From positions 1,888,501 through 1,952,500 of the forward strand of contig NC_013162.1 in NCBI RefSeq assembly GCF_000023285.1: 64,000 nt of DNA, read 5' to 3'. This document shows, in pieces, positions 1,008-58,071 of the stretch. The translations under genes and the position numbers were made by a program. The first letter of the stretch is position 1; the number at the start of each line of letters is the position of its first letter. The notes beneath the pieces were generated by a model. It was given only the letters and a program-made list of their open reading frames with translations, was not told the DNA's origin and made no database searches. This DNA is from Capnocytophaga ochracea DSM 7271. GTDB lineage: Bacteria; Bacteroidota; Bacteroidia; Flavobacteriales; Flavobacteriaceae.

Positions 1008-1026
1008 TGTGAGCCACAAGGGTAGG
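1008..1026 (-). repeat. REP-like palindromic unit (degenerate)
   Basis: GTGTGAGCCACAAGGGTAG is a degenerate copy of the 18-bp unit TGCCYGTGYRGCTCGCAC, read on the minus strand. It is one of about eight such loci in the window. This copy sits in a divergent spacer, unlike most of the others, which lie at gene 3' ends. Confidence 0.4.
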
Positions 1027-1498
1027 TAAGGAATGAACGAACAATAAGTGAAAGAAGGCTTGTAGTTAATGATTAATGGTTAATGGTGAAATTGGGAGAG
1101 GATTATACAAAGCTTATAGGATAATTAAACAATGAGTGGCTCTACAGTGGCTCTACAGTGGGTCTACAGTGGGTCTACAGTGGGTCTACAGTGGGTCTAC
1201 AGTGGGTCTACAGTGGGTCTACAGTGGGTCTACAGTGGGTCTACAGTGGGTCTACAGTGGGTCTACAGTGGGTCTACAGTGGGTCTACAGTGGGTCTACA
1301 GTGGGTCTACAGTGGGTCTACAGTGGGTCTACAGTGGGTCTACAATGGGTCAACAGTGGGTCTACAATGGGTCAACAGTGATGAATAAACGAAGGAATAA
1401 CGAAGGAATAACGAAGAATGAACGAAGAATGAACGAAGAAACAATAAATCTAAGATGAATGTAAGGTGAATAGAAGGAGTAAATGTGTTGTGTAAATG
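1026..1498. repeat. 11-bp-phased repeat tract between purM and aroB
   Basis: The spacer reads as consecutive 11-bp units in a single phase. Examples are ACGAACAATAA (1037), GTGAAAGAAGG (1048), the minisatellite at 1136-1377, ACGAAGGAATA (1389 and 1400), ACGAAGAATGA (1411 and 1422), ATGAATGTAAG (1455) and GTGAATAGAAG (1466). Units at 1037 and 1389 are separated by exactly 32 units. Similar tracts occur in six other spacers. Nothing else, coding or RNA, is recognisable in this stretch. Confidence 0.75.
1136..1377. repeat. 22-copy minisatellite, 11-bp unit
   Basis: There are twenty-two tandem 11-bp units without indels. Two are GTGGCTCTACA, the next seventeen are exactly GTGGGTCTACA, and the last three are ATGGGTCAACA, GTGGGTCTACA and ATGGGTCAACA. 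Because 11 is not a multiple of 3, all three forward frames stay open and encode the same 11-residue repeat (about SGSTVGLQWVY). The open frames here are a by-product of the repeat and are not annotated as genes. Confidence 0.95.
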
Positions 1499-1526
1499 AC
1501 GGTCTTTTGGTGCTGAAAGGGGGAAT

Positions 1527-1557
1527 TTGTACAATTGTTATTATTTTACTACTTTTG
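1527..1557 (+). promoter_or_regulatory. Promoter of aroB
   Basis: TTG at 1527-1529, a 20-base spacer and TACTTTTG at 1550-1557 match the Bacteroidota consensus. The start codon at 1575 lies 17 bases further on. This places transcription initiation inside the longest possible ORF and supports the shorter start. Confidence 0.65.
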
Positions 1558-1574
1558 CCAAAAATTCTGTACTG

Positions 1575-2675
1575 ATGGAAGCAAATGTTATCAGAGCTGG
1601 AAATTACAACGTTTATTTTAATGAGGAAGGAACTGATTTTATCAATCGAATGGTTGCGGAAAAACGTCCTTCGAAGCTGTTTTTGTTGGTGGACAGTCAT
1701 ACCAATGAAAAATGTTTGCCTGTGTTTTTACCTACTCTCATTACTGATATTCCGATAGAAATTATAGAAATAGAAGCGGGAGAACTGCATAAAAACCTCG
1801 ATACTTGTACGCAAGTGTGGCACGCACTTTCAGAATTAGGAGCCGACCGCAAGAGCTTGCTCATAAACGTAGGAGGAGGAGTGGTAACCGATTTAGGAGG
1901 CTTTGTGGCTTCTACCTATATGCGCGGAGTGCCCTTTATTAATGTGCCGACGAGTTTACTGGCAATGGTAGATGCCTCGGTAGGGGGGAAGACGGGGGTG
2001 GATTTAGGTCCTTTGAAAAATCTTGTAGGAGTGATAAACAATCCGTTGGGGGTGGTGATAGACTCGCAATATTTAGGAACGTTACCTGCTGAGGAATTGC
2101 GTAGCGGAATGGCAGAGATGTTTAAGCACGGACTTATTCGCTCGGAGGCTTATTGGAACAAAATGTGTGATTTGAGAAGCCTTTCGTTAGCTGATTTAGA
2201 CAGTCTTATTCACGAATCGGTGGTGATAAAGAACGAGGTGGTAATGCAAGACCCGAAAGAATGTGGATTGAGAAAAATACTGAATTACGGTCATACGCTG
2301 GGGCACGCTATCGAGTCGTATTGCTTGGAAAACCCCAATCGCCAATGTTTGTTGCACGGAGAGGCTATTGCGATAGGAATAGTGTTGGCTACTTACCTAT
2401 CGGTGAAAAAGTTAGGCTTTCCTAAGGGCAAATGCGATAAGGTGAAAAGCGTGTTGGGAGAGTATTTCAGCAAACAAACTTTTCATAAAGAGGATATTGA
2501 GGATATTTGTGAGTTGATGCGTTTTGACAAGAAGAATGTAGCGGGCAGAGTACACTTTGTGCTTTTAGAGGAGATAGGTAAGCCTAAAACGGATTGTGTA
2601 GTGCCTGAGGAAGAGATTTACGAGGCGTTTGAGTACTATAGCGAGTCGCACGGGGAGATAAAAGGTAAGAGATAA
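1575..2675 (+). CDS. aroB: 3-dehydroquinate synthase
   Basis: This gene makes a 366-residue cytosolic enzyme converting DAHP to 3-dehydroquinate, the second step of the shikimate pathway, using NAD and a divalent metal. The nucleotide-binding stretch NVGGGVVTDLGG is near residue 98. The metal-ligand motifs EMFKHGLI, NYGHTLGHAIE and LHGEAIAIG follow in the usual order. Length is normal for the family. I chose the ATG at 1575 rather than an in-frame ATG at 1527, because the promoter overlaps the earlier one and homologues begin near this point. It stands alone, diverging from purM and followed by a 260-bp repeat-bearing spacer. Confidence 0.95.
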   Translation: MEANVIRAGNYNVYFNEEGTDFINRMVAEKRPSKLFLLVDSHTNEKCLPVFLPTLITDIPIEIIEIEAGELHKNLDTCTQVWHALSELGADRKSLLINVGGGVVTDLGGFVASTYMRGVPFINVPTSLLAMVDASVGGKTGVDLGPLKNLVGVINNPLGVVIDSQYLGTLPAEELRSGMAEMFKHGLIRSEAYWNKMCDLRSLSLADLDSLIHESVVIKNEVVMQDPKECGLRKILNYGHTLGHAIESYCLENPNRQCLLHGEAIAIGIVLATYLSVKKLGFPKGKCDKVKSVLGEYFSKQTFHKEDIEDICELMRFDKKNVAGRVHFVLLEEIGKPKTDCVVPEEEIYEAFEYYSESHGEIKGKR

Positions 2676-2735
2676 GAGGTAAAAGGTAAAGCCAGTGAGG
2701 GCTCACTGCTGGGTGTGTGGAGGCGGATTAATTAG

Positions 2736-2815
2736 CAAATGAGGAAATGAGAAAATGAGGAAATGAGAAAATGAGGAAATGAGAAAATGAGGGAATGGGA
2801 AAATGGGGAGATGAG
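2736..2815. repeat. Array of ten 8-bp units (RAAATGAG)
   Basis: Ten contiguous 8-bp units alternate mainly between GAAATGAG and AAAATGAG, degenerating at the right end (GGAATGGG, AAAATGGG, GAGATGAG). The array lies 120-200 bp before the metallopeptidase start. The same unit in the opposite orientation forms the array at 15513-15656. Tandem octamers of this kind are prone to slippage. Confidence 0.9.
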
Positions 2816-2938
2816 AAAATTTGACTAATAAAACAATAATTAATTATGACAACCTTTTTTAGGACGTGACAGTGATTTTTTTTGGTGAAAATTAAGTGAG
2901 GAAGCAAAAGAAATAAAAAGTATATAAAGAATTAAACA

Positions 2939-5542
2939 TTGAGATATAGCAATTACAATAGTATTTTTTGGTTATTTATTTTGGTGGTGTTACAAGGGTC
3001 GGCACAGAATTATTGGCGCAAGGCTGATTTCTCGACTCAGCGCAGTGTAGCAGTCACTACTAATAACTCCAATTATCAGTATTTTACACTGAATAAAAAG
3101 GCGTTTGCACGTGCTTTGGAAACCGATAGTAGACGCAGTGAGGCTACCGTTCAGATACCTGATGCCAACGGAACACTCATTACTTATCGCATTGCACCTA
3201 CGCAGGTTCTTTCGGAAGCAGTTGCACGAAAATATCCTTCTATTAAAACTTTTGTGGGTAAATCAGTAACTGACCCCTCTAAACATATTCGTTTTACGTG
3301 GAGCGATTATGGGCTTGATGCTATTATGGAAGAAGAGTTGAGCTATTCGTTTATAGAAGCAGAAGATAAAGAAGGTGTTTATTACAGGGTTTATCGTCGT
3401 AAGGATGTTGAAAAAGCATTCATAGACTGTAAAACATTGGATGTGCCTACTCTTTTGCAGGAAAGTAAAGCGGCTCAACGCCCTTCATTTCAGACTAAAC
3501 CTATGCAACGTACTTTTCGCATTGCAATTGCTTGCACCCACGAATATACTGATTATTTCTGGGGAAAGGCTTCAGCTTTTGCCCAAATAGTCAGTACGCT
3601 AAACCGTGTAAATGAGGTCTATGGGCAACAGCTGTCGATTGTTTTTCAGTTAGTTTCGGACGATAGTATAGTATATGAGACTAAAGATACTGACCCTTTT
3701 ACGGGTATTAACTACGAAAAAGAATGGTACAAAAATAAAGCTCGTGTACTGCAAGAAGTTTTGGACAACAAGATAGGTAATGCTAATTATGATATAGGGC
3801 AGTTGTTTCACAATGCTGCAGAAGGAGGTAATGCAGGTTGTATAGGGTGCGTGTGTACCAACGACCTCAAAGGACAGGGATTTTCGTCTTATCCGTTTGC
3901 TTACGTACGCAATAGAAGTGCTTTTGATATAGATGTGGTAGCTCACGAGATAGGACATCAACTGGGGGCACGGCATACTTTTTCTTATCGCAGAGAAGAT
4001 GGGTCGGGGTCGCAGATGGAACCAGGGAGTGGTACTACTATTATGAGCTACGCAGGAGTTACGCGATATTATGATGTACAACAGAATGCTGACCCTTATT
4101 TTCATCACCGCACTATTTACGACATTACAGATAACCTACAAGGCAAGTCTTGTGCTACCGAAATTTCTACGGGCAATACCCCTCCTGAGATACCCGACTT
4201 GAAAAGCTATACTATTCCGTATGGAACTGCTTATTTATTAGAAGGTACTGCTACCGATGCTGATGGCGATGCGTTGCTTTATACGTGGGAAGAAAGCGAC
4301 AATTATACAGAAACGGGTAATTATTATTTTTCACCTACAATACGTTCAGGAGCTACGGCACGCTCTATGAAACCCTCAGCACAATCATATCGCTATATCC
4401 CGCGTTTGGAGCGTATAGTAGCGGGTACGCTCACCCAGCAGAATCCTAAAAAAGGAGATGCTTGGGAAACAGTGCTCAACATAGGGCGTACCTTGCATTG
4501 GACTTTTATGGTTATCGACCGTCCTTTAGCAAGCAATCAAACAGGAAATACAGCTTATAAAACCATTGATGTGGTAGTGAGTGCAGACGCGGGTCCGTTT
4601 AAAGTGAGTTCGCATACCGAGCAAAGCACTTGGTATGTAGGACAAAAAGTAAGTTTGCAGTGGAATGTAGCTAATACTGATAAAGCACCTGTGAATGCCG
4701 AAAAAGTGAAGATACTCTTTTCGACTGACGGGGGAGTTACTTTTTCGCATACCTTAGCTACGGGCTTACCTAATAACGGGAAAGCTGAAATAAGTGTGCC
4801 TGATGCTATTAAAACGCAGCAAGGAAGGTTTATGGTGAAAGCAGAAGAGAACCTATTTTTGGCAGTGAATGCAGGGACTATCACCGTAAAAGAAGATGAC
4901 GATGTGGATAATGACGGTATACCTTCGCGTATGGATAATTGTCCGACAGTAGCCAACCCTGACCAAGCTGATGCTGATAATGACGGTATAGGCGATGTTT
5001 GTGATGAAGATATGGATGGTGATGGAATTTTAAATGTTTTGGATAACTGCCCTACCGTGTCTAACACTACCCAACAAGACACTGACAACGATGGCATAGG
5101 AGATGCTTGCGATAACGATATAGATGGAGATGGTTTCTTAAATGACCAAGATAATTGTCCTAATGTATACAATCCAGACCAAGCTGATTTAGACGATGAT
5201 GGTATAGGCGACGCTTGTGATGACGATGTAGATGGCGACGGAATCCCGAATGCACAAGACCCACAGGTGGATTATGTGCTTATTTCCAACGCTTTTACCC
5301 CTAATGGCGATGGGGTGAATGATACTTATGTGATAGCGCGTGCTGAACGATACCCTAATAACACCCTGTATATATTTAATACCTTAGGGCAATTAGTCTA
5401 CTCGGCTCACGGGTATAAGAACCAATGGGATGGTAAAAAGTTTGACGGTACCTTAGTGCCACGAGGTTCGTATGTAGCCGTTTTCAGCATTGACGGCAGT
5501 GAAAAGAACAAGAAACAACTTTGGATTTACATTAATTATTAA
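2939..5542 (+). CDS. Secreted reprolysin-like zinc metallopeptidase with thrombospondin type 3 repeats and T9SS type B sorting domain
   Basis: This 867-residue protein has a signal peptide (about 1-22, ending GSAQ). The metzincin motif HEIGHQLGARH is near residue 339, with the Met-turn TIMSYAG about 30 residues later. Around residues 651-776 calcium-binding thrombospondin type 3 repeats (DxDxDGIxDxxDNCP) appear. The last 90 residues (NAFTPNGDGVNDTY to WIYINY) are a gliding-motility-associated C-terminal domain, the type B signal for the type IX secretion system. The product is therefore predicted to be exported and released or surface-bound. The likely start is TTG at 2939, because it puts the signal peptide exactly at the N-terminus. 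Two PorP/SprF genes follow, a common arrangement for type B cargo. Substrate unknown. Confidence 0.9.
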   Translation: MRYSNYNSIFWLFILVVLQGSAQNYWRKADFSTQRSVAVTTNNSNYQYFTLNKKAFARALETDSRRSEATVQIPDANGTLITYRIAPTQVLSEAVARKYPSIKTFVGKSVTDPSKHIRFTWSDYGLDAIMEEELSYSFIEAEDKEGVYYRVYRRKDVEKAFIDCKTLDVPTLLQESKAAQRPSFQTKPMQRTFRIAIACTHEYTDYFWGKASAFAQIVSTLNRVNEVYGQQLSIVFQLVSDDSIVYETKDTDPFTGINYEKEWYKNKARVLQEVLDNKIGNANYDIGQLFHNAAEGGNAGCIGCVCTNDLKGQGFSSYPFAYVRNRSAFDIDVVAHEIGHQLGARHTFSYRREDGSGSQMEPGSGTTIMSYAGVTRYYDVQQNADPYFHHRTIYDITDNLQGKSCATEISTGNTPPEIPDLKSYTIPYGTAYLLEGTATDADGDALLYTWEESDNYTETGNYYFSPTIRSGATARSMKPSAQSYRYIPRLERIVAGTLTQQNPKKGDAWETVLNIGRTLHWTFMVIDRPLASNQTGNTAYKTIDVVVSADAGPFKVSSHTEQSTWYVGQKVSLQWNVANTDKAPVNAEKVKILFSTDGGVTFSHTLATGLPNNGKAEISVPDAIKTQQGRFMVKAEENLFLAVNAGTITVKEDDDVDNDGIPSRMDNCPTVANPDQADADNDGIGDVCDEDMDGDGILNVLDNCPTVSNTTQQDTDNDGIGDACDNDIDGDGFLNDQDNCPNVYNPDQADLDDDGIGDACDDDVDGDGIPNAQDPQVDYVLISNAFTPNGDGVNDTYVIARAERYPNNTLYIFNTLGQLVYSAHGYKNQWDGKKFDGTLVPRGSYVAVFSIDGSEKNKKQLWIYINY

Positions 5543-5564
5543 GAAGAGAAAAACACAGAATCCT

Positions 5565-6497
5565 ATGAAAAAGATATTATTAAGTATATTGGTAATAGGC
5601 ACAAGTGCTTTGCACGCACAAGCCACAGACCCTACGTACATTTTTTATCAACAACACGAAAACCTAATAAACCCAGCAGCAGTGGGAATGGAGTTTGGGC
5701 ATACTATTTCGGTAGATATACGCAACCAGTGGCGAGGAATGACCGAAGCCCCACAAACGCAAACCTTTTTTACTACGCATCGTTTGAGTGACCGTGTGGG
5801 GTTAGGTTTTTCATTGGCAAGCAACAAAGTATTTATACAGAAACAAGCAGGCATTTATGCCGATTTCTCGTATGCAATACCCATTTCGTACAACTCGCGA
5901 TTGATAGGAGGAATTAAATTTGGCGGTGATTTCTATAATATAGACGGAAGTGATATGACGTATTATAACGGCTTGTATAACCAATATTACCCTAATGGCA
6001 CACGTATGCACCCTACTTATTATTACGACCCTTATTTGCAAACCATTTCAGGAAAGTTCCAGACTAACTTTGGGGCAGGGCTGTATTATGACCACCCTAA
6101 CTTTTACGTAGGTTTTTCTATCCCTAATATGCTTGCTACCGATAGGGTGCGAATGGATAATGACCAAATGACTTCTTTAGCCGAAACGATGTACTTCTAT
6201 ACCATAGCAGGCTATTACTGGCGTCTTACTCCCGATTTCACTATTAAACCGCGTTTGCAGATGCGCTTAGCCAAAGGCGAATATCCCTCGACCGATATTA
6301 CAGTAGCAGGAAACTTTTTGGAACGAGCAGAATTAGGGGTTACTTATCGCACAGATAAAGCTGTGAATGCTTATGTATTATTTAATATTCCTAATTATTA
6401 TGTATCTATAGGCTATGGTTTTGAGAGCTATTTTCAAACCCATATGAATTTACAGTCGCGCAACTCTCACGAGTTTTTGGTGCAATTTAAATGGTAA
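5565..6497 (+). CDS. PorP/SprF family type IX secretion membrane protein, copy 1
   Basis: This is a 310-residue outer-membrane protein with a signal peptide (MKKILLSILVIGTSALHAQA). It shows PorP/SprF features: YIFYQQHENLINPAAVG near the N-terminus, TFFTTHRLSDRVGLG, GGIKFGGDFYNIDG, and an aromatic C-terminus EFLVQFKW. The family forms small beta-barrels that work with the T9SS. SprF-like members are needed for surface display of type B cargo encoded next to them. It starts 22 bases after the metallopeptidase stop, so it is probably co-transcribed. The ATG at 5565 was chosen over an upstream in-frame start because it places the signal peptide first. Confidence 0.9.
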   Translation: MKKILLSILVIGTSALHAQATDPTYIFYQQHENLINPAAVGMEFGHTISVDIRNQWRGMTEAPQTQTFFTTHRLSDRVGLGFSLASNKVFIQKQAGIYADFSYAIPISYNSRLIGGIKFGGDFYNIDGSDMTYYNGLYNQYYPNGTRMHPTYYYDPYLQTISGKFQTNFGAGLYYDHPNFYVGFSIPNMLATDRVRMDNDQMTSLAETMYFYTIAGYYWRLTPDFTIKPRLQMRLAKGEYPSTDITVAGNFLERAELGVTYRTDKAVNAYVLFNIPNYYVSIGYGFESYFQTHMNLQSRNSHEFLVQFKW

Positions 6498-6662
6498 GGC
6501 TAAGAGATGAAGATAAAACAAGGAGTGTTATTGTAATTTAGAATTTAAGTGTTTGAGTTGTTTTTGTTTCTAATTGTTAGTTTATATTGTCTTTACTCAA
6601 ATATTGGAGCCTTTGTAGTTACAATTTGCTCTTATCCTTTATTAGAAGAAATTATTATCAGA

Positions 6663-7577: not shown

Positions 7578-7596
7578 GTGCAAGTCCCACGGGCAA

Positions 7597-8484: not shown

Positions 8485-8504
8485 AGTAAATAGAGGTTTA
8501 AGTA

Positions 8505-11108: not shown

Positions 11109-11144
11109 TGCCTGTCGTGCTACGACTGCTTGTGCGGCTCGCAC
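11109..11144. repeat. REP-like tandem pair
   Basis: Two adjacent 18-bp imperfect palindromes, TGCCTGTCGTGCTACGAC and TGCTTGTGCGGCTCGCAC, lie downstream of the small membrane protein gene. Each unit can fold on a GTGCG/CGCAC-type stem. Confidence 0.75.
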
Positions 11145-15356: not shown

Positions 15357-15444
15357 TATACCCTTTCTATACCAATCGTCCAAGATTCGTATAAGCTTCC
15401 TATAAGCTTTCTATAAGCTAACTATACCATAACCCTATCTTCGA
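15357..15444 (+). repeat. 11-bp-phased intergenic element, copy 1
   Basis: Eight consecutive 11-mers: TATACCCTTTC, TATACCAATCG, TCCAAGATTCG, TATAAGCTTCC, TATAAGCTTTC, TATAAGCTAAC, TATACCATAAC, CCTATCTTCGA. The third unit is identical in all four copies of this element. It lies in the divergent spacer between the OstA-like gene and rsmH. A looser 10-bp rhythm of CGAT-containing units continues to about 15475. Confidence 0.85.
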
Positions 15445-15512
15445 TACTTTCCGATTCCCTCCGAGATTCTCCGATAACACACCTTTGCAATCCCTACAAA
15501 ACCTTCTCCATT

Positions 15513-15656
15513 TTCTCATTCTCTCATTCTCTCATTCTCTCATTCTCTCATTTTCTCATTTTCTCATTCTCTCATTCTCTCATTTTCTCATTTTCTCATT
15601 CTCTCATTTTCTCATTTTCTCATTTTCTCATTCTCTCATTTTCTCATTCTCTCATT
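15513..15656. repeat. Array of eighteen 8-bp units (YTCTCATT)
   Basis: Eighteen units in perfect register, each TTCTCATT or CTCTCATT, which is the reverse complement of the unit at 2736-2815. The array ends about ten bases before the -33 element of the rsmH promoter, so changes in copy number would alter the promoter's upstream flank. Confidence 0.95.
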
Positions 15657-21575: not shown

Positions 21576-21625
21576 GATTAGGTTTTAAGAGGGGAGTTTT
21601 TAAGTATTTACATCATTATAAAATT

Positions 21626-21662
21626 AAACTTTTCCAAGAACTTAAAGCTCTTGGAAAAGTTT
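21626..21662 (+). terminator. Terminator hairpin after murE
   Basis: A 13-bp stem (AACTTTTCCAAGA against TCTTGGAAAAGTT) with a 9-base loop, followed by TTATTATG, lies 50 bases after the murE stop. The trailing T run is short. Confidence 0.6.
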
Positions 21663-21734
21663 ATTATGCCACTACTTTGTTTTAAGATTTAAATTGTGTA
21701 TATTTATTTTCCTTATACGACGTTCATTAAGATA

Positions 21735-21765
21735 AAAAAAGCTCCAACTTTGTTGGAGCTTTTTT
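21735..21765 (-). terminator. Bidirectional terminator of tRNA-Arg
   Basis: A 9-bp stem (AGCTCCAAC/GTTGGAGCT) with loop TTT is flanked by A and T runs on both sides. On the minus strand it starts three bases beyond the tRNA 3' end. Confidence 0.8.
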
Positions 21766-21767
21766 CG

Positions 21768-21841
21768 TGACCTCGACAGGATTCAAACCTGTAACCTTCT
21801 GAGCCGTAATCAGATGCGCTATTCAGTTGCGCCACGAGGCC
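21768..21841 (-). tRNA. tRNA-Arg (anticodon ACG)
   Basis: The minus strand folds as a 74-base cloverleaf. The acceptor stem is GGCCTCG/CGAGGTC (one G-U pair) with discriminator A. The anticodon arm is TCTGA-TTACGGC-TCAGA, giving anticodon ACG. The T arm is ACAGG-TTTGAAT-CCTGT. CCA is not encoded. The A34 is presumably edited to inosine to read CGN codons. Confidence 0.93.
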
Positions 21842-21865
21842 ATTGTTGTTCTTGTTTTACGGGTG

Positions 21866-21895
21866 CAAAGGTACGACCTTTTTTGAAACCTGCAA
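21866..21895 (-). promoter_or_regulatory. Promoter of tRNA-Arg
   Basis: Minus-strand TTG near 21893-21895, a 19-base gap and TACCTTTG (21866-21873), 24 bases before the mature 5' end. Confidence 0.6.
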
Positions 21896-21930
21896 ACTTT
21901 TTCACAACTTTTTCACAAATTATTTTCTTC

Positions 21931-22983: not shown

Positions 22984-23018
22984 ATTGTTTTAGTTTTTGA
23001 TTTTGTCTAAATTTTTGT

Positions 23019-23026
23019 CAAAGGTA
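23019..23026 (-). promoter_or_regulatory. Promoter -7 element of ilvE
   Basis: TACCTTTG on the minus strand, about 36 bases before the ilvE start. No good TTG lies at the expected -33 distance. Confidence 0.45.
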
Positions 23027-23135
23027 CAAAATATTTTTTAACTTTGTCGCGTAAAACACAAAAATCTTTACCTATATTTTTCAACACACTAACTATTAAA
23101 CGATTACTTGTTATCTTTTATCTTTTACCTGAATA

Positions 23136-25405: not shown

Positions 25406-25482
25406 TATACCTTTTGTATAACAATCTTCCAAGATTCGTTCAAGGTTCCTATAAGCTTCCTATAAGCTAAGTATAAGTTATC
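25406..25482 (+). repeat. 11-bp-phased intergenic element, copy 2
   Basis: Seven 11-mers in register: TATACCTTTTG, TATAACAATCT, TCCAAGATTCG, TTCAAGGTTCC, TATAAGCTTCC, TATAAGCTAAG, TATAAGTTATC. It lies in the divergent spacer between tsaE and dcuB, about 50 bases upstream of the dcuB promoter. The rest of this 370-bp spacer is AT-rich and shows no other feature. Confidence 0.85.
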
Positions 25483-32362: not shown

Positions 32363-32472
32363 TTTTACTTTACCTCTACTTTACTCGAACCTAAGACGAA
32401 GGTAAGACGAACCTAAGACGAAGCTAAGGCGAAGGAAAGAGGGTATTAAGCTGAATATCAAACGGAAAAAAG
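32363..32472. repeat. 11-bp-phased tract between the DUF2520 and LUD genes
   Basis: Ten units in register: TTTTACTTTAC, CTCTACTTTAC, TCGAACCTAAG, ACGAAGGTAAG, ACGAACCTAAG, ACGAAGCTAAG, GCGAAGGAAAG, AGGGTATTAAG, CTGAATATCAA, ACGGAAAAAAG. Units share ends of the TAAG/AAAG type. It sits in the leader or upstream region of the minus-strand promoter at 32564. Confidence 0.85.
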
Positions 32473-40900: not shown

Positions 40901-43900
40901 CTCTTTAAAGACGTCCCTACTTCTTTTGAGGCTGGTGTTTCTTATGATATAATTGATAAAGATGGATTGATTTCTACTACTAGGATGGATTATTTAGGAC
41001 TAAAAGATATGATAAAAATGAGTCCGGCACTTGTAGGAAAACATACTTTTATATACCGCATAAAATCGGCTTGTGGTTCCGTGATTACACAAACAGAAGC
41101 TACTTTAGAAGTAAAAACTTATAAACAAATCTATGCTACAAGTATAAATGTTTGTGAAGCAACTAAAACATTGGCAGAACTTGAAACGATTATTAAAAAC
41201 ACAAACACAGGTATAACAGCATCTATGTTTGGTAATAACTTTGAGTTTCAGTGGTATCCTACTTCTGTAGATGCAATTAATGAAACGAATAGAATTACCA
41301 CTCCATCGCTGTCCCTATCCGAAGGGAATAATCAGTATTACATAAAAGGGAAACATATAGGTGATAGTTTCTGTTTTTCTTCACCTGCACAAGTGAATAT
41401 TATGCGTCTTTCCTCATCTTCTAAAGGTGATAAAACCATAACACTTTGTGAAGGAACTACCATAACCGACTTGAAGAAAGAAATTGCTAAGCCATCTACT
41501 TCCGATGTAAATAAAGTAGCTGTTTATAAGGGTACAACCCTACTTTCTAACGATGATCTGTTGCAAACAGGTATTCAGTATACTTATACCTATAAAGTGG
41601 GTACTTGTGAAACGCCTTCGGCTAATATAAACCTTACTCTCACCCCTATAACTTCTATACTCCCAGTAGAAAGTTTAGTAGTATGTGATTATGAGGTGGA
41701 AAACCTATCTTATTACACTACTTATGCTGTGGTAATGAATTACCTTCAAACAAAGTATGCAGGTAAGACAGTTAAATTGTATCAAAGTTTTGGACCTTAT
41801 AATATTCCTCAGGTACAACCTACTGATAAAATATTTTTAAATACTGATAGATTTTCGTATACTTTGCAAGAAGCAGGAAAATGTGAGTCAGTTAGACAGA
41901 AAATTATAGTTGTAGCCGATATTAATCGTGCTATAGCTACTACAGTAGCTATAAGCGTATGTGAAGAAGATAAAGTGTCTGCTATAAGAGCCAAGTTAAT
42001 AGGAGATAATATCAAAATCTATAAAAAATTAAGAACATCTTCTCAGAATGCTGTTCTATCTACTGAAGTTAATGATAATGAAGATATAGATTGGACAGAA
42101 GGAATAGAATATTTCTATACTATAAAAAACACAGGAGATACTTGTGAAAGTAGAAAAGAAAGGATATACCTTTCGAAATCATTAGGAGGTAAAACTTTAG
42201 CACAGCCAGTCTCTTTATCATTGTGCAATAGCAATGCTACTATAGGGGATTTGAAAGTAGCCTTGCAGGGAAATGAAGTGAAAATCTATACACTTAATGC
42301 TCAAAATAAATATGTAGAGGAAGCAGAAGCCACAGTTCTTAATGCTGCTACCACTTATTACTACACCCTTCGCGATATTGGAAAATGTGTGAGTGAAAAG
42401 GCTCCTATAACCTTTACACTTTTGCAGCGTCCTGTCACTCCTACAGTTACCCAAACTACCCAATCTTTCTGTAGTAATGCCACCATAGCTTCCTTGCAAC
42501 CCCAAGGCGCTAATATAATATGGTATGCTACAGCTACCAGCACAACACCTTTGGCAAATACAACGCCTTTGGTAGCGGGTAATACTTACTATGTAGCTCA
42601 GAGAAATGGCAGTTGTGAAAGTGCCCGTGCAGTAGTGAATGTAATCTATAGCAATACATTAAGCCTTACTGTACCAGCACCTTTAACCATTGCTTGCGAT
42701 GATGCTAACATAGCAACAACTGTAGGCAATTGGCTCAACCAAGCTACAGTTACCGATACTTGTGGTACGGCTACCCTTACCCACAACTACACTGCGGTGA
42801 AACCGACGGATTGGTGTAACACTTCGATAGTAACTATTACCTTTGTAGGTAAAGACCCATTAGGCAACACCGTTACCAAAACAAGCACTATCAAAGTATT
42901 GCAAATTGATGCTGTAGACGATACACATACGGGTATCATCAATGGAGCCAATGGTGCTAATGATGTGATTGATGTATTGCAAAATGATAGGGTAGGAGAG
43001 ACACAAGCTACTACAAGCAATGTACAGCTTACGGTAGTAACCCCTGCTACTGGAGGAACCAATGTACCTACACTTAATACCGCTACAGGTAAAATATCAG
43101 TCCCTGCAGGCACTAAATCGGGTACTTATACTATTCAGTACAAAATCTGTCATACCGAAAATAGTATAACCGTTTGCGACACAGCCACCATCACTGTAAA
43201 AGTAGGCAGTACGCCAATTGTTGCCAAAGCCGATACTTATACGATAACCAATGGTACTAGCACAACAACTACCACAGGTACGGTATTAGATAACGATAAA
43301 CTCGGCACTAAAACGCCAACAACTACCGATGTGATTCTTACCGTAGTAACTACCACCACCGATGTAGTAGGAGCGACTAAAACGCCTACGCTCAACAACA
43401 ATGGTACTGTTACGGTACCTTCGGGTACTAGATCGGGTACTTACCAAATAGTGTATAGCATCTGTGAGCGTTTGAATCCTGATAACTGTGCAACAGCCAC
43501 AGCTACTGTAAAAGTAGGCAGTACGCCAATTGTTGCCAAAGCTGATACTTATACAATAACCAATGGTACTAGTACAACAACTACCACCGGTACGGTATTA
43601 GATAACGATAAACTCGGCACTAAAACGCCAACCACCACCGATGTGATTCTTACCGTAGTAACTACCACCACCGATGTAGTAGGAGCGACTAAAACGCCTA
43701 CGCTCAAGAACAATGGTACTGTTACGGTACCTTCGGGCACTAAATCGGGTACTTATGAGATAGTATACAGCATCTGTGAGCGTTTGAACCCTGATAACTG
43801 TGCAACAGCCACAGCTACTGTAAAAGTGTTTGTTCCTACTGTAGTAACGCCAACGACTATTGAAGCAGTGAACGATGGGGTAACTACGATTACAAGCATT

Positions 43901-44926: not shown

Positions 44927-45003
44927 TATACCCTTTGTATATCTATCTTCCAAGATTCGTTCAAGCTTCCTATAAGCTTCCTATAAGCTAAGCATACCCA
45001 ATT
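44927..45003 (+). repeat. 11-bp-phased intergenic element, copy 3
   Basis: Seven 11-mers in register: TATACCCTTTG, TATATCTATCT, TCCAAGATTCG, TTCAAGCTTCC, TATAAGCTTCC, TATAAGCTAAG, CATACCCAATT. A further box at 45042-45066 recurs near copy 4. Confidence 0.85.
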
Positions 45004-48771: not shown

Positions 48772-48790
48772 TATAATTAGCCGATTTATC

Positions 48791-48826: not shown

Positions 48827-48875
48827 TGCTAATTTTTCATTAACCATTAATAATTAACCATTAATCATTAAAAAA

Positions 48876-50202: not shown

Positions 50203-50225
50203 AGGCGGAAAATTAAAAACAGACA

Positions 50226-51206: not shown

Positions 51207-51250
51207 TAACGTAACAAACTTAAAATTAAATAACGAATAAATTAAATTAA

Positions 51251-52258
<1,008 letters not shown>

Positions 52259-52265
52259 TTCATAA

Positions 52266-52308
52266 AGAAAAAAGGTGAGTTGCCTATGGAGGCATACTCA
52301 CCTTTTTT
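52266..52308 (+). terminator. Terminator of gapA
   Basis: GGTGAGT pairs with ACTCACC, with an inner TGCC/GGCA pairing, flanked by A-run and T6. Confidence 0.85.
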
Positions 52309-52340
52309 AATAGTAAACAACTTAATAAAACCGAAACGAT

Positions 52341-53195
52341 ATGATTTTAATTGTAGACAGTGGAGCTACTAAGGCGGATTGGACAGCCTTAAATAGCAAA
52401 GGTGAAAAAATATTTTTTACTCAAACTTTAGGGTTAAATCCTGAAGTTCTTACAGAAGAAATTCTCGTAGAGCGTATTACCACCAATTATCAATTGTTTG
52501 AGAACAGAAATTCAGTATCAGAAATTTATTTCTATGGTGCTGGTTGTGGTACTGAACGCATTCGTTACTTTGTAGAACGCAGTTTGGCAACTATCTTCAA
52601 AAACGCTAAAATAGATGTGAAAGAAGATACTTATGCAGCTGTGTTTGCCACTACAGCTCCCACCGATAAAGCTATCGTATGTATCTTAGGTACAGGTGCT
52701 AACTGCTCTTATTGGAATGGTAAAGAATTATACCAAGCAGTAGATTCATTAGGCTATATTTTGATGGACGAATCGAGTGGGAACTTTTATGGTAAACGAT
52801 TGATTATCGACTATTACTTTAAGAAAATGCCATCAGACCTTGTACAAAAATTTGAAAACCAATATGAATTGGGCTCAGATGTGATTAAAAATCATTTGTA
52901 CAAGATGCCAAACCCTAACAGTTACTTGGCTACTTTTGCGAAATTCGTAGTAGAAAATAAGAATCACGAATATTGCCGTGAGATGGTGAGAAAAGGTATG
53001 CAACTATTTGTAGACCACTGGATTTCTCAGTATGAAGACCGTTACGAAGTGCCTATCAACTTTGTAGGTAGTATTGCTTTCTTTCTCCAAGATATTTTGG
53101 AAGAAATATTGACAGAAAACAACCTTAAATTGGGTACAGTGCTAAGAAAACCAATTGATGGTTTGGTTGCTTTCCACGTAAACAAATTCTTTTAA
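52341..53195 (+). CDS. BadF/BadG-type ATPase, N-acetylglucosamine kinase-like
   Basis: This 284-residue cytosolic kinase of the ASKHA fold has VDSGATKADWTALNS (phosphate 1) near residue 5, CILGTGANCSYWNG (phosphate 2) near 114 and LMDESSGNFYGKRLI. It groups with BadF/BadG/BcrA/BcrD ATPases; in Bacteroidota these are generally annotated as N-acetylglucosamine kinases, which fits its size. The sugar cannot be confirmed here. It is 80 bases after gapA, across a terminator, so it has separate expression. Confidence 0.75.
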   Translation: MILIVDSGATKADWTALNSKGEKIFFTQTLGLNPEVLTEEILVERITTNYQLFENRNSVSEIYFYGAGCGTERIRYFVERSLATIFKNAKIDVKEDTYAAVFATTAPTDKAIVCILGTGANCSYWNGKELYQAVDSLGYILMDESSGNFYGKRLIIDYYFKKMPSDLVQKFENQYELGSDVIKNHLYKMPNPNSYLATFAKFVVENKNHEYCREMVRKGMQLFVDHWISQYEDRYEVPINFVGSIAFFLQDILEEILTENNLKLGTVLRKPIDGLVAFHVNKFF

Positions 53196-53215
53196 TAACG
53201 AATAAAAGATAAAAT

Positions 53216-53250
53216 AAAAAAGACACTCACTATTGTGGGTGTCTTTTTTA
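53216..53250. terminator. Bidirectional terminator between the sugar kinase and deoxynucleoside kinase genes
   Basis: AAAAGACACTCAC pairs with GTGGGTGTCTTTT around a short loop (one G-T), with A and T runs on both sides, between converging genes. Confidence 0.82.
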
Positions 53251-53252
53251 TT

Positions 53253-53867
53253 TTAGAATAATCCGTAGAGGAGAGCATCTATTTTATTGATGATTTCACC
53301 TAAATCTTCAGGGTTGTTTACGAAATCAATATTGTCTACTTCTATAATGAGTAGTTTCCCCTTGTCGTAACTTTTTATCCACTGTTCGTATCGCTGGTTG
53401 AGGCGGTTAAGATAGTCTATCGAGATTGTATTTTCGTAATCTCGACCGCGCTTTTGTATTTGGTTTACTAAGTTGGGTACTGAGCTTCTGAGGTAAATCA
53501 GTAGGTCTGGTGGGAGAACAAGGCGCTCCATCAGAGCGAATAGAGACTTGTAATTATCGAAATCACGAGAGCTCATCAGTCCCATTTCGTGTAAGTTAGG
53601 GGCAAAGATGTGAGCATCTTCGTAAATAGTGCGGTCTTGAATGATGTTATTTCCTTTCTCTCTAAAATCCAAAATCTGTCGGAAGCGACTGTTTAGAAAG
53701 TATATTTGTAAATTAAAACTCCAGCGCTCCATTTGGTGATAAAAATCATCTAAATAAGGGTTATCTACCACATCTTCGAAATGGGCTTCCCATTGGTAGT
53801 GTTTGGCTAATAGAGAGGTAAGGGTAGTTTTTCCAGCTCCTATATTTCCTGCAATTGCTATGTGCAT
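53253..53867 (-). CDS. Deoxynucleoside kinase
   Basis: This 204-residue cytosolic kinase has Walker A IAIAGNIGAGKTTLTSLLA at the N-terminus. The DRTIYEDAHIF motif and DLLIYLRSSVPNLVNQIQKR (LID arginines) place it in the dCK/dGK family, which salvages deoxynucleosides. The exact base preference is unknown. The start codon follows the AsnC stop by 2 bases, so the pair is an operon on the minus strand. Confidence 0.9.
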   Translation of the reverse strand: MHIAIAGNIGAGKTTLTSLLAKHYQWEAHFEDVVDNPYLDDFYHQMERWSFNLQIYFLNSRFRQILDFREKGNNIIQDRTIYEDAHIFAPNLHEMGLMSSRDFDNYKSLFALMERLVLPPDLLIYLRSSVPNLVNQIQKRGRDYENTISIDYLNRLNQRYEQWIKSYDKGKLLIIEVDNIDFVNNPEDLGEIINKIDALLYGLF

Positions 53868-53869
53868 TT

Positions 53870-54358
53870 TTAATTAGTTTTTTCAGCTTCCTCACGTAGA
53901 CATTTAATCATAGAGGTGTTCTTGATTTCTTGTATTACGAAAGAGCTTTGAATGTTAGAGATAATTTCTAATTTAGATATTTTGTGTACTACAAATCTCT
54001 GATAATCTTCCATATCGTTGAGCATAACTTTTAGCAGAAAGTCATAGCCTCCTGCCATATACGAGGCTTCTAACACTTCATCTAAAGTGCTTATATATTT
54101 TTCGAACTCATTAAATAATTCGGCACTATGCTTAAGAAGTTTTACTTGACAATAAGCTACCAATTTTTTTCCGAGAGCTTTAGGATTGGCTACCGCTACA
54201 TATCTTTGAATTATCCCTAGTGATTCTAATCGTTTGATACGTTCGTGAACTGGAGTGATTGACAGGCTTACTTTCTCGGATAATTTTTTAATAGATTGTT
54301 TGCTATCTTGTTGTAATTCATCTAAAAGTGCTAAATCAATACGGTCTAATGCATACAT
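53870..54358 (-). CDS. Lrp/AsnC family transcriptional regulator
   Basis: This 162-residue regulator has an N-terminal helix-turn-helix (about 6-60; LALLDELQQDSKQSIKKLSE) and a C-terminal RAM ligand-binding domain (about 70-150; VAYCQVKL, EASYMAGGYDFLLKVML). Ligands of the family are amino acids. It diverges from menE over a 670-bp spacer and precedes the deoxynucleoside kinase gene. The target genes are unknown. Confidence 0.9.
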   Translation of the reverse strand: MYALDRIDLALLDELQQDSKQSIKKLSEKVSLSITPVHERIKRLESLGIIQRYVAVANPKALGKKLVAYCQVKLLKHSAELFNEFEKYISTLDEVLEASYMAGGYDFLLKVMLNDMEDYQRFVVHKISKLEIISNIQSSFVIQEIKNTSMIKCLREEAEKTN

Positions 54359-54657
54359 ACTTTTATAAATTTATTGGGGGTAAAATTAGAAAATATTTTT
54401 GATATAGAAGGGGAAAAGACAAAATATTTTTTCTGTTTTTTTATAAAAGGCTCATAATCATTATTATTTTTAGATGAATAATTGGGTTGCAAAAGGCTAA
54501 AACTATAGAAATATTTTCTGAGTAAAGTATGTTTTACAGAATAGGTTATTTTCAATGATAGTTTGTATTGTCTTTAAATTGATTATCAATTGAATCAGCT
54601 TTGCCAAAGTGTGTGTCGCAAAAAGGACACATTAGCGTTTTGGGAGAGACACAGAAT

Positions 54658-54682
54658 CATCGAAGGGAAACGAAGAATATCA
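54658..54682 (-). repeat. Shared box beside 11-bp element copy 4
   Basis: Reverse complement of the box at 45042-45066, with three or four differences, placed at a similar distance from the element. Confidence 0.7.
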
Positions 54683-54732
54683 AAAGATGATTGGAGGGGT
54701 TTTTGGTGAAAAAAGGGTGTAAGGAGGGTGGG

Positions 54733-54798
54733 GTTAGCTTATAGAGAGCTTATAGGAAGCTTGAACGAATCTTGGACGATTGGTATAGAAAGGGTGTG
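54733..54798 (-). repeat. 11-bp-phased intergenic element, copy 4 (reverse orientation)
   Basis: On the plus strand: GTTAGCTTATA, GAGAGCTTATA, GGAAGCTTGAA, CGAATCTTGGA, CGATTGGTATA, GAAAGGGTGTG. The fourth is the reverse complement of the conserved core 11-mer. It sits in the divergent asnC-menE spacer. Phase continues leftwards to about 54711. Confidence 0.85.
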
Positions 54799-54969
54799 TA
54801 AAAAGTTGATTCATAATATAATACAGCAAGGCTAAAAGTGCTAAAAACGATGTTTCGAGCCGAAAGTAATAGAAAGATAAAATGAGAATAGAGCGATGGT
54901 TTGGTAATTGCCGACAATCCCAATGAGGGCGAATTGTAGTGATGAAAATATAAGATTTTACATTTAATT

Positions 54970-55000
54970 TTGCTCATTTCGTTTAATTATTGTAGCTTTG
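54970..55000 (+). promoter_or_regulatory. Promoter of menE
   Basis: TTG at 54970-54972, a 20-base gap and TAGCTTTG at 54993-55000, 32 bases before the start. The rest of the 54359-54657 spacer is AT-rich without recognisable features. Confidence 0.6.
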
Positions 55001-55031
55001 CCACTGCTATTAAAACAATATTACATTTAAG

Positions 55032-56114
55032 ATGAACGAAATAGACTACAAATTTGTACATAAAGATTTTAGAATCAATGGATTTCCTATAGATAGAGAA
55101 CGACTTATTATCTTGGCGGTAGCCTACGTGAAAGATGGTTTGCCTTACCGCAAATCGGTGGGGAGGTTTCTTTTGGATTGGCTTGACGACAGGGATTATA
55201 TAGAAGCGACGACCTCTGGTTCTACTGGCATTCCTAAGCAAATTCACCTTAAGAAACAAGGTATGGTTAATTCGGCTTTGGCTACGGGTGAATATCTTAA
55301 TCTTTCACCTAAGAATCGTGCTTTGTTGTGTTTGCCAGCTGACTTTATTGCAGGTAAGATGATGCTTATTCGCGCCATTATTTTAGGTTTACACCTTGAT
55401 ATTATTCGCCCTTCGTCTATGCCTTTATCGCTTACCAGTAAGGATTATGATTTCTGTGCAATGATACCTTTGCAAGCGGCGAAATCTCTTACTGATTTGC
55501 CTCGTGTGAAGAAGGTAATATTAGGAGGTGCTTCTATTGATGGAGAATTAGAAGCTAAATTACAGAATATTCCCACAGAAGTGTATTCGTCTTACGGAAT
55601 GACTGAAACTATTTCGCATATTGCGATGCGCAGGGTAAATCACACGATGGAGCACGAAACTACCTATAAAGCAATGCCTAATGTTACGTTTACCCAAGAC
55701 GACCGCAATTGTTTGGTAATTAATGCACCTTTGATTGCCGACCACCCTGTGATTACTAATGATATTGTAAATCTCATATCGCATAGTGAATTTGAGTGGT
55801 TAGGGCGTTTTGACAATATTATCAATTCGGGAGGCTTTAAAGTCTTTCCAGAAAGTGTAGAGCACAAGATTAAGAAGTACATCAAAGGTGATTACTTTAT
55901 TACTAAAGAACCTGATGATGAATTAGGACAACGAGCAGTGCTTTACGTACAGGGTGAGGAGAAGGATTACCCTACTTTGGCACACGATATTTATATGGAT
56001 AAAGATATACTGAAATACGAAGTGCCTCGCCAAATCTATTTCGTTCCTAAGTTTGTGTATACCGATAATCAAAAGCTAAGAAGGGACGAAACGGTTAAGA
56101 AATACAAGAAATAA
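55032..56114 (+). CDS. menE: o-Succinylbenzoate-CoA ligase (AMP-binding)
   Basis: This 360-residue acyl-CoA synthetase activates o-succinylbenzoate for menaquinone synthesis. The AMP-binding motif TSGSTGIPKQIHL near residue 60, SSYGMTET near 193 and LGRFDNIINSGGFKVFPE near 260 follow the family order. The short length is normal for Bacteroidota MenE. It starts an operon with an exporter 1 base later. menC lies 30 kb away. Confidence 0.85.
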   Translation: MNEIDYKFVHKDFRINGFPIDRERLIILAVAYVKDGLPYRKSVGRFLLDWLDDRDYIEATTSGSTGIPKQIHLKKQGMVNSALATGEYLNLSPKNRALLCLPADFIAGKMMLIRAIILGLHLDIIRPSSMPLSLTSKDYDFCAMIPLQAAKSLTDLPRVKKVILGGASIDGELEAKLQNIPTEVYSSYGMTETISHIAMRRVNHTMEHETTYKAMPNVTFTQDDRNCLVINAPLIADHPVITNDIVNLISHSEFEWLGRFDNIINSGGFKVFPESVEHKIKKYIKGDYFITKEPDDELGQRAVLYVQGEEKDYPTLAHDIYMDKDILKYEVPRQIYFVPKFVYTDNQKLRRDETVKKYKK

Positions 56115-56115
56115 G

Positions 56116-57942
56116 ATGAAACTCAAGAGATTTATCCCTTATATATTGCCTTATAAGAAACAGGCAATACTGAACATATTTTTCAATATTCTTTATTCAC
56201 TCTTTAGTGCACTTTCGTTTGTGGCACTTATCCCGATGCTTGATGTACTTTTTGGCAAAGCGCAAACAGTAGCTGAAGCTCCTGTATATTCGGGTAATTT
56301 GTTGGATTTAGGGAGTTATGGTAAAGCCTACTTAAACTACAAAGTAGGAATTCTTGCGGGAGAAAATACTATTTGGGCTCTTGGAATAGTGATTGCTTTG
56401 GTAATTTCACTCTTCTTGCTGAAGAATATGTTTAGCTATTTAGCTTCTTTTTTCATCACTTACCTTCGCAATGGTGTATTACGCGATTTGCGTGATGCAC
56501 TTTACAAAAAGGTTGTAAGCCAACCGATAGCATTTTTCTCAGAACAGCGCAAAGGCGATATTATGTCGCGTATGGTAGGTGATGTAAACGAAGTACAATA
56601 CTCATTGCTCTCGGGATTGGAGGCTTTTGTGAGAGAACCTCTTACTATTCTCTTTTCTATTTTGGTGATGCTAGGTATTAGCGTGAAACTTACAGTATTT
56701 ACCTTTGTATTTATTCCTATTGCAGCGGCAGTAATTTCGAGGATAGGTAAATCACTAAAAAAGAATTCAATAGCTTTACAACAAGAGCAAGGGCGATTTC
56801 TTTCGCTCATAGAAGAGACTATAGGGGGATTGCGCATTATAAAGGCATTTAATGCTGAGGGTATTTTTTCTAAGAAATTTAAGGAATCTAGTAATACTTT
56901 TAACCGATTGAGCAATAAGGTAATGAACCGTCAGAACTTAGGGTCGCCAATGAGTGAGTTTCTCGGTATCCTGATGATTGCTATTTTGCTGTGGTTTGGA
57001 GGCTCGTTAGTGTTGGTAGATAAAACATTAGAGGGCACTCAATTCATTGCCTTTATGGGATTGGCGTACAATATTCTCACCCCCGCTAAGGCTATCAGTA
57101 AGGCATCATACGATATGCGAAAAGGGAATGCAGCAGCCGAACGTATTTTGGAAATCCTTGATTACGAGAATCCTATTAAAGAGTGTGAAAATCCTGTTGT
57201 AATTTCTGATTTTACCACTGCTGTAGCTCTGAAAGATATTACTTTTGCGTATGCTGAACTGCCCGTACTCACTCATTTTTCTTTGGAAATACCTAAAGGA
57301 AAGACAATTGCCTTAGTAGGGCAATCAGGGAGTGGCAAGAGCACTATTGCGAACCTTATCACTCGTTTTTACGATGTAAATCAGGGAGAGGTACTTATCG
57401 ATGGGGTGAACGTAAAAGATATGCAAACTGCCTCCTTGCGAAAGCTCATAGGGGTGGTATCGCAGGATTCTATTCTTTTTAATGATACGGTAAAGAACAA
57501 TCTGCTGATAGGAAAGCCCGATGCTACTGATGAAGAACTAGTGACAGCGGCTAAAATAGCTAATGCTTATGAATTTATAAAAGACCTTCCCAAGGGGTTC
57601 GATACCAACATAGGCGATGCAGGTAGTAAACTGAGTGGCGGACAAAAACAACGTCTTAGTATTGCTCGTGCAGTGCTGAAAAACCCACCTATAATGGTAC
57701 TCGATGAGGCAACTTCGGCACTTGATACAGAAAGCGAGCGTTTGGTACAGAATGCCTTAGAAAATATGATGAAGAACCGCACTTCGGTAGTGATTGCACA
57801 CCGGCTTTCAACAATCCAAAATGCTGACCAAATAGTAGTAATGCAAAAAGGGCAAATAGTAGAGCAGGGTACCCATACTGAGCTGATACAAAGGAATGGT
57901 ATGTATAAAAAGTTAGTGGAAATGCAATCGTTTGAGCAATAA
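56116..57942 (+). CDS. ABC transporter, MsbA-like (fused permease and ATPase)
   Basis: This 608-residue inner-membrane exporter has six membrane helices (about 15-320) and a C-terminal nucleotide-binding domain with Walker A ALVGQSGSGKSTIANLITR, signature LSGGQKQRLSIARA and Walker B IMVLDEATSALD. It resembles MsbA, the lipid A flippase, and other lipid or drug exporters. Lipid A transport is the favoured guess given LPS genes elsewhere. It begins one base after the menE stop. Confidence 0.88.
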   Translation: MKLKRFIPYILPYKKQAILNIFFNILYSLFSALSFVALIPMLDVLFGKAQTVAEAPVYSGNLLDLGSYGKAYLNYKVGILAGENTIWALGIVIALVISLFLLKNMFSYLASFFITYLRNGVLRDLRDALYKKVVSQPIAFFSEQRKGDIMSRMVGDVNEVQYSLLSGLEAFVREPLTILFSILVMLGISVKLTVFTFVFIPIAAAVISRIGKSLKKNSIALQQEQGRFLSLIEETIGGLRIIKAFNAEGIFSKKFKESSNTFNRLSNKVMNRQNLGSPMSEFLGILMIAILLWFGGSLVLVDKTLEGTQFIAFMGLAYNILTPAKAISKASYDMRKGNAAAERILEILDYENPIKECENPVVISDFTTAVALKDITFAYAELPVLTHFSLEIPKGKTIALVGQSGSGKSTIANLITRFYDVNQGEVLIDGVNVKDMQTASLRKLIGVVSQDSILFNDTVKNNLLIGKPDATDEELVTAAKIANAYEFIKDLPKGFDTNIGDAGSKLSGGQKQRLSIARAVLKNPPIMVLDEATSALDTESERLVQNALENMMKNRTSVVIAHRLSTIQNADQIVVMQKGQIVEQGTHTELIQRNGMYKKLVEMQSFEQ

Positions 57943-57957
57943 GCTTAGGGTATAGGA

Positions 57958-57992
57958 GTGAGCCACACAGGCAGGTGCGAGCCGCACGGGCA
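57958..57992. repeat. REP-like tandem pair after the MsbA-like gene
   Basis: GTGAGCCACACAGGCAG and GTGCGAGCCGCACGGGCA, a head-to-tail pair 15 bases after the stop, reading as the unit in reverse. Confidence 0.8.
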
Positions 57993-57994
57993 GA

Positions 57995-58071
57995 TAAACA
58001 AAAGACGAACAAAGAACGAACAAAGAACGAACAAATGATGAATCTAAACCGAAGAAAAAGCGAATAATAAA
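57995..58071. repeat. 11-bp-phased tract between the MsbA-like gene and tyrS
   Basis: Seven units in register: TAAACAAAAGA, CGAACAAAGAA (twice), CGAACAAATGA, TGAATCTAAAC, CGAAGAAAAAG, CGAATAATAAA. Each of the last six begins with CGAA or TGAA. It ends about 76 bases before the -7 element of tyrS. Confidence 0.82.

Follow-up and report, generated by a model that had tools for sequence, protein, structure and literature searches.

Do the spacers between divergent genes of Capnocytophaga ochracea DSM 7271 contain sequences phased with the DNA helix, and what could such sequences be for? The question is raised by a stretch of 64,000 nucleotides (positions 1888501–1952500 of the single-contig genome of 2,612,925 bases, hereafter called the window), in which the original prediction had noted seven tracts of short words repeated in a strict 11-bp register, four of them with a common core. 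This observation is confirmed and the phenomenon is larger than was first noted. The common core belongs to family A, a dispersed element of ~209 bp whose centre is formed by five 11-bp words and which is present in 127 copies in the genome, and the three remaining tracts are, judging by their units, members of two further families, B and C. It is plausible, while somewhat short of probable, that a putative protein loads along one helical face of the DNA and marks sites of the chromosome, often at divergent promoters.

The 11-bp register in intergenic spacers

The statistics were collected on the window together with 40 stretches of 20 kb taken across the genome (864 kb, 33%), and this sample is meant below unless the whole genome is named. 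The gene models were produced by our own script, which missed some genes. Spacers of at least 30 bp were scored (449 in total), and a lag-11 segment was defined by a score of at least 12. Such segments were found in 69 of the 449 spacers against 0.0 expected from five shuffles per spacer, so that the predicted excess over shuffled DNA is borne out. Lags 10, 12 and 13 were seen in 0–1 spacers per orientation class, and 1 of 688 called genes contained a lag-11 segment. Lags 7, 8 and 9 (57, 44 and 16 spacers, respectively) and some multiples were also above chance, which means that the spacers carry 7-, 8- and 11-bp arrays; among these periods 11 bp alone is close to one helical turn.

The segments occur in 33/56 divergent spacers, against 31/339 tandem and 5/54 convergent ones, as would follow from the predicted preference for divergent ones. 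This preference is also seen in the spacers free of family A (11/34, 17/325 and 3/52, in the same order) and in those of them which are at least 200 bp long (11/26, 17/112 and 3/13; p 0.005 for divergent vs. tandem). The accompanying claim that no tract lies in a convergent spacer did not survive. Convergent spacers hold lag-11 segments as often as tandem ones, and the window itself has a short lag-11 repeat in the convergent spacer 21576–21930 (score 14.6, reached by 0/500 shuffles). The bias is toward divergent spacers, and there is no special avoidance of convergent ones.

The family A element

A core of 29 bases, with at most one mismatch allowed, was used to count A in the genome (127 copies); the sample contains 40 copies. 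For comparison with each other 78 copies were collected and excised ungapped; 38 of them came from stretches picked for a core match, so that the core statistics are biased. In 59 copies, designated as full and picked by ungapped agreement of the core and of columns -88 to -70, a constant ungapped distance separates the left block from the core; they were compared over 209 columns. Among the other 19 are copies consisting of the core alone, some lacking one unit (697590, 550820) and one in which the downstream part is shifted by 1 bp (1257303). The consensus of the full copies contains a dyad TTTCGCCTCGAAA near column -85, and the core words in columns 0–54 are ATCGTCCAAGA TTCGTATAAGC TTCCTATAAGC TCTCTATAAGC TAACCCCACCC. 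The 46-bp core is mismatch-free in 47/78 copies. Column entropy per word is 0.02–0.06 for the first four core words, 0.1–0.6 for the left flank and 0.5–1.0 for the right flank in the full copies, the choice of which was partly based on the core and columns -88 to -70. In the core the words are directly repeated and show no covarying pairs, and hence A lacks the imperfect palindromic unit of repetitive extragenic palindromic (REP) sequences and bacterial interspersed mosaic elements (BIME). Direct repeats at 11-bp spacing, as in phased arrays of the ParR/StbA type, are found both in A and in the other tracts.

Could A be simply a family of non-coding repeats scattered over the genome, either mobile or multiplied through recombination, in which the 11-bp units grow like a minisatellite and which is tolerated in long divergent spacers? 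This account is possible but on the doubtful side, and we regard with similar reserve its variant, in which the core owes its conservation to recognition by the copying machinery, or to copies that are recent or converted. Linkage between the columns of A fades within ~40 bp, as it would with frequent short exchanges, and the left end near -90 is fairly sharp, although this sharpness is biased by the selection of copies. The exchange of whole 11-bp blocks between copies is not claimed, the block effect in the linkage being weak and offset-dependent. On the other hand, the consensus has no terminal inverted repeats (the best is 8 bp with 2 mismatches), which counts against a repeat family. The 7-mers common to both ends, which are not in excess (1/59 copies vs. 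1–7 after permutation, with exact boundaries uncertain and the comparison made on 7-mers), may count against it as well.

A structured RNA transcribed from the spacer is an extremely unlikely explanation. The consensus of the 59 copies does fold better than 20 column-shuffled controls (-7.1 vs. -1.0 kcal/mol for the sense and -11.4 vs. -2.5 kcal/mol for the antisense strand), but the covariation terms of -0.07 and +0.65 amount to none, the Rfam matches in the window consist of one tRNA only, and the 11-bp register would be left without explanation.

The strict helical period would also suit an intrinsic bend or a purely mechanical element. One B array is predicted to be strongly curved (z -6; all curvature values are estimates from a wedge model). 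However, the A core, family C and the unit of a related genome, G001, do not exceed shuffles in predicted curvature (z +0.8 to +1.2; mean z +0.93 for 40 A cores), and a sequence-exact core is unnecessary for bending, which makes this explanation very unlikely. Of the roles proposed originally, an intrinsic bend is not general, being predicted for B only, and an assembly site for a nucleoid protein would fit best.

Families B and C

Family B consists of (TTCGTCTTTTG)n and family C of (GTAGAGCCACT)n units, with 20 and 12 loci, respectively. Arrays of B and C and core copies of A can have a common register, strand and order. The order B, C, A on one strand and in one register is found in the window (tract 1) and at 177.7, 203.6 and 2,295 kb, and the order B, A at 36.5 and 2,362 kb; other C arrays stand without adjoining B or A. 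The arrays of B and C extend to about 20–30 units, which is in favour of a repeat family. Many B loci have a REP-like hairpin module on both sides of which the unit register is preserved; longer hairpin clusters do not always preserve it. Such hairpins (GTGCGGCTCGCAC and GTCGTGCTACGAC) occur beside or inside B arrays genome-wide, often with the register unbroken; in the window they lie at 11132–11144, 57975–57987 and 59521–59533.

Placement on the chromosome

Family A is present in 22/56 divergent spacers, in 14/339 tandem and in 2/54 convergent ones; the remaining two of the 40 sample copies are at stretch edges. Among spacers of at least 200 bp the numbers are 22/48, 14/126 and 2/15 (p 1.8e-6 vs. 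tandem and 0.03 vs. convergent). Divergent enrichment, core constraint and a median distance of 291 bp between the core and the nearer gene start (22 copies) could be taken as signs of one large regulon, with an activator or repressor bound to A upstream of divergent promoters. We consider such a regulon unlikely: the sites are too distant from the promoters for a classical operator, all 127 of them are scattered, their neighbours in the window are unlike in function (rsmH, tsaE and a dcuA-like gene), and 14 of the 40 sampled copies are in tandem and 2 in convergent spacers.

Three parS sites at 0.997–0.999 Mb were used as a reference point. By quarter of distance from parS the 127 A copies are distributed as 48/39/27/13 (Kolmogorov–Smirnov p 4e-6; mean position 1.14 Mb), i.e. 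there are many chromosomal sites which are depleted opposite the origin, if the origin is placed by parS only. Family B shows 0/1/8/11 loci by quarter, with 19/20 in the far half, and full A copies and B loci differ in their distance from parS (p 1.7e-5).

The copies of A are also kept apart from each other. Between 0.2 and 1.9 Mb there are 110 of them at a mean spacing of 15.1 kb (coefficient of variation 0.59), and none are less than 2 kb apart vs. 13.5 expected at random. Divergent spacers are dispersed along the chromosome in any case, and the comparison was therefore made with a class-matched null: 1 pair closer than 5 kb was found vs. 5.9 expected (p 0.006), or 1 vs. 6.7 in the A-rich half (p 0.0008). 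Both this lack of close pairs and the split of A and B by chromosome half are not expected of a dispersed repeat family and are less well explained by it.

The orientation of A matches the sign of the local coding GC skew in 33/40 sample copies, an observation made post hoc, and is not clearly tied to the GC skew at third codon positions (26/40) or to the gene strand (22/40). In tandem spacers A is antisense to the genes in 10 cases and sense in 4. Replication polarity of A was considered and rejected, as the agreement with GC skew is not accompanied by agreement with the replichore (p 0.59) or the gene strand.

Related arrays in other genomes

Twenty genomes of the genus were compared, including that of C. 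ochracea (G000). Phased TTCG arrays, defined by five anchors at 11-bp distance, are present in six of them. The numbers of matches (overlapping, both strands) are 309 in G000, 47 in G001, 28 in G009, 18 in G013, 15 in G008 and 6 in G010, and the reversed-pattern control gave 1, 3, 5, 0, 4 and 0, respectively. The words of the arrays differ by species: TTCGCTTATCC/TTCGCTCAACC in G001, TTCGCTCATTG in G009 and TTCGAGATGTG in G008. G013 has its own TTCGTTTATAG/TTCGTTTATCC form with 228 matches (overlaps counted, at most 3 mismatches; control 0). The divergent bias is found in the relatives as well: lag-11 segments pooled over G001, G009 and G013 occur in 10/14 divergent spacers, in 9/46 tandem and in none of the 7 convergent ones, 12 of the 15 stretches behind this pool having been chosen for holding arrays. 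Outside the pool, the corresponding numbers are 5/10, 3/39 and 1/11 for G008, and 2/14, 0/63 and 0/7 for the group of array-free genomes, in which G010 was included despite its 6 TTCG matches.

A search with the A profile through 134 loci of other genomes (1.01 Mb) gave three copies in G008, a copy on a plasmid and one short relative in G008. The three G008 copies are full, and two segments (2.4 kb and ~12 kb), 92–95% identical to C. ochracea, contain them or have them at their edge. This points to homologous transfer as the probable source of these copies and speaks against a repeat family. At the two aligned loci of the three, the differences amount to 15 and 19 of 163 columns in the flanks and to 0/46 in the core of each (34/326 vs. 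0/92 in total). The two segments (L227 and L228 in G008, L225 and L226 in C. ochracea) retain their identity though the rsmH proteins of the two genomes share 75% identity, a contrast suggestive of recent recombination between the species.

The spacer between the Lrp/AsnC and AMP-binding enzyme genes, which harbors the full A copy of the window, contains a TTCGCTTATCC array in C. leadbetteri. It appears by eye to be array-free in C. periodontitidis and C. sputigena, as may be expected of a dispersed repeat family. Such a family would also agree with the presence of a relative of A on a mobilizable plasmid, NZ_CP027233.1 of Capnocytophaga oral taxon 864. Here a type VI secretion cluster has, in one of its spacers, the frame of A with other words. 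Apart from a single 1-bp indel in the left block, the plasmid copy aligns with A ungapped, with 32/55 core and 116/154 flank positions identical (p 0.02), and the columns invariant in C. ochracea are kept at 26/39 positions of the core and 44/47 of the flanks (p 0.002). On this one copy, the part which is most uniform within the genome seems to diverge more between species than the flanks do. A phage origin of A was considered too and rejected, since viral contigs contain no exact match to the core and blastn gave none in phages.

A possible reader of the sites

The uniform core, the single register for different words, the distance between copies and their placement fit a cooperative DNA-binding protein with concertedly evolving sites. 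Under the reading favoured here, the A elements would be chromosomal sites of a putative protein which recognises units of the type TTCGTATAAGC / TTCCTATAAGC, with several protomers bound along the same helical face and each 11-bp unit taken by one of them. The outer dyad TTTCGNNNCGAAA possibly aids the loading. The complexes may mark positions of the chromosome, e.g. boundaries of domains or of supercoils behind divergent promoters, and an 11-bp period would also suit underwound DNA. Alternatively, they may serve as origin-side marks akin to nucleoid-occlusion sites. The arrays of B and C could be additional sites of this unit system or relatives of it that have expanded, with B intended for the other half of the chromosome, and the differing words in sister species and on the plasmid could result from co-evolution of the sites with their reader.

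Several observations weigh against this marking protein. No reader was found, no search aimed at one having been made. A is absent from 18 of the 19 other genomes of the genus (22-base core, at most 2 mismatches; diverged forms such as that of the plasmid would escape) and five-anchor TTCG arrays are absent from 14/20, which means that the system is dispensable in the genus. The repeat family gives a simpler account of the species restriction and of the mosaic flanks. With the limit set at 8 or 10 kb, the deficit of close pairs loses significance over the whole sample (p 0.17 and 0.31; p 0.02 and 0.07 in the A-rich half), and when the full copies of A in the sample are taken by themselves, their distances from parS differ from those of the sample to a modest degree (p 0.03). 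The origin is placed by inference from parS (0.998 Mb), whereas dnaA is located at 2.32 Mb, and the orientation of A is unrelated to the replichore. In G013 the first 100 forward copies by position show, by eye, no depletion opposite parS; a seeming absence of copies past parS in this genome results from the limit to these 100 and was rejected. The plasmid comparison consists of one copy.

Comparison with known systems can be made in several directions. The sites of the nucleoid-occlusion proteins SlmA and Noc are short operators, in contrast to the multi-turn 11-bp arrays found here. 11-bp direct repeats, or 11-bp spacing, bound on one face of DNA are present in ParR/parC of plasmid R1 and in StbA; there, one centromere per plasmid is situated beside the par genes, as opposed to 127 chromosomal sites here. 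REP hairpins and the short tandemly repeated repetitive (STRR) heptamers of cyanobacteria are dispersed intergenic repeats without a helical-turn register, which the 11-bp units do possess; REP-like hairpins nevertheless adjoin the B arrays. The SlmA and Noc sites are described as dispersed over the chromosome, with SlmA sites more abundant near the origin (PMC4117426, PMC4331003); the A sites are similarly dispersed and are denser on the parS side. The matS sites of MatP in the ter macrodomain, given as 23 sites in 800 kb (PMC3330122), resemble A as a set of repeated sites limited to part of the chromosome, but matS is a single 13-bp site, and here two unit families divide the chromosome. BrickBuilt of Porphyromonas gingivalis, a miniature inverted-repeat transposable element (MITE), is likewise intergenic, restricted to its species and internally repeated in tandem, and it comes from an oral member of Bacteroidota. 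It has a 23-bp repeat, IS5-type inverted ends and 19 copies (PMC4596501), in contrast to the 11-bp words of A and its lack of terminal inverted repeats. No description of the present 11-bp elements was found in a survey-level search of the open-access literature.

To our knowledge, little is known about the organisation and segregation of chromosomes in Bacteroidota as compared with E. coli and Bacillus. The 127 near-identical multi-turn sites, spaced apart and enriched on the parS side, give a direct handle on this, and the core can be used as bait. If the elements are amplified repeats, strict helical-turn repeats with species dialects would still be unusual. A more speculative idea, which we hold to be rather improbable, is that each species of oral Capnocytophaga has an 11-bp vocabulary of its own, for which the reader would be a filament-forming protein that evolves fast. 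It would set marks every 10–20 kb, preferably at divergent promoters, and the different words in the parS half and in the opposite half would then constitute a code of chromosome addresses.

Tracts of the window

The three tracts without a full core are real and strictly phased (scores of 250.6, 28.0 and 24.6, each reached by 0/500 dinucleotide shuffles), and the four spacers with core copies are likewise at 0/500 each, which confirms the count of seven. Our gene calls agree with six divergent spacers, five of them containing a tract. The sixth, 22984–23135, presumably ilvE–mnmD as it was named earlier, is at chance, with its lag-11 score reached by 238/500 shuffles. Two of the seven tracts (44945 and 57995) are located in tandem spacers. 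The three tracts had been described as unrelated, which has to be corrected: tracts 2 and 3 and one end of tract 1 consist of minus-strand TTCG-type units. Similarly, the loose unit YGAAnnTAAR proposed for them fits tract 2 best, while the common anchor is CGAA/TTCG, and it is absent from family C.

Tract 1 lies on the minus strand in the divergent spacer between an AIRS-domain gene and dehydroquinate (DHQ) synthase. Its main part (1135–1380) is a family C array of ~22 units GTAGACCCACT, preceded on the 5' side by family B units (TTCGTTCATTC, TTCGTTATTCC; 1383–1475) which fade to a looser lag-11 repeat. The 3' end of this mixed array is an A-core relic (ATCCTATAAGC TTTGTATAATC; 1101–1122) on the same strand and in the same register, and the unit order recurs at the other loci given above. 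Tract 2 (32386–32440, minus strand, divergent spacer) contains B-type units TTCGTCTTAGG and TTCGTCTTACC. Tract 3 is a family B array (TTCGTTCTTTG; 57995–58071, minus strand) in the tandem spacer before tyrosyl-tRNA synthetase, adjoined by the REP-like hairpin GTGCGGCTCGCAC at 57975–57987 of the same strand.

The only full-length A element of the window occupies 54660–54868 on the minus strand of the divergent Lrp/AsnC–AMP-binding enzyme spacer (dyad TTTCGGCTCGAAA; core at 54735–54780 with 2 mismatches). Partial A cores on the plus strand are found upstream of rsmH in a divergent spacer (15375–15420, 46-bp core with 1 mismatch), in the divergent spacer between tsaE and the dcuA-like gene (25424–25469, 6 mismatches) and in a tandem spacer (44945–44990, 5 mismatches). 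Among ten neighbouring genes in the window which were scanned there is one Lrp/AsnC regulator; the others are enzymes, a transporter, an OstA-like protein and a protein with a domain of unknown function (DUF).

Other repeats

Arrays with an 8-bp period, composed of a few words ([AC]ATT followed by TGCT, TTCT, TCCA, TCCT or CTCT), occur in many spacers holding A, and their variation is seemingly limited to certain positions. In the window one of them (TTCTCTCA; 15504–15656, plus strand) shares the divergent spacer with the A core of rsmH, and another lies at 2737–2820. The 7-bp arrays (CATTAAC, CAATTGT and CTTTTAC types), with 57 of the 449 spacers, are nearly as frequent as the 11-bp ones and include 48838–48871 of the window. 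Finally, an open reading frame of 2290 amino acids contains a 312-bp tandem repeat in 2.1 copies (43181–43827).

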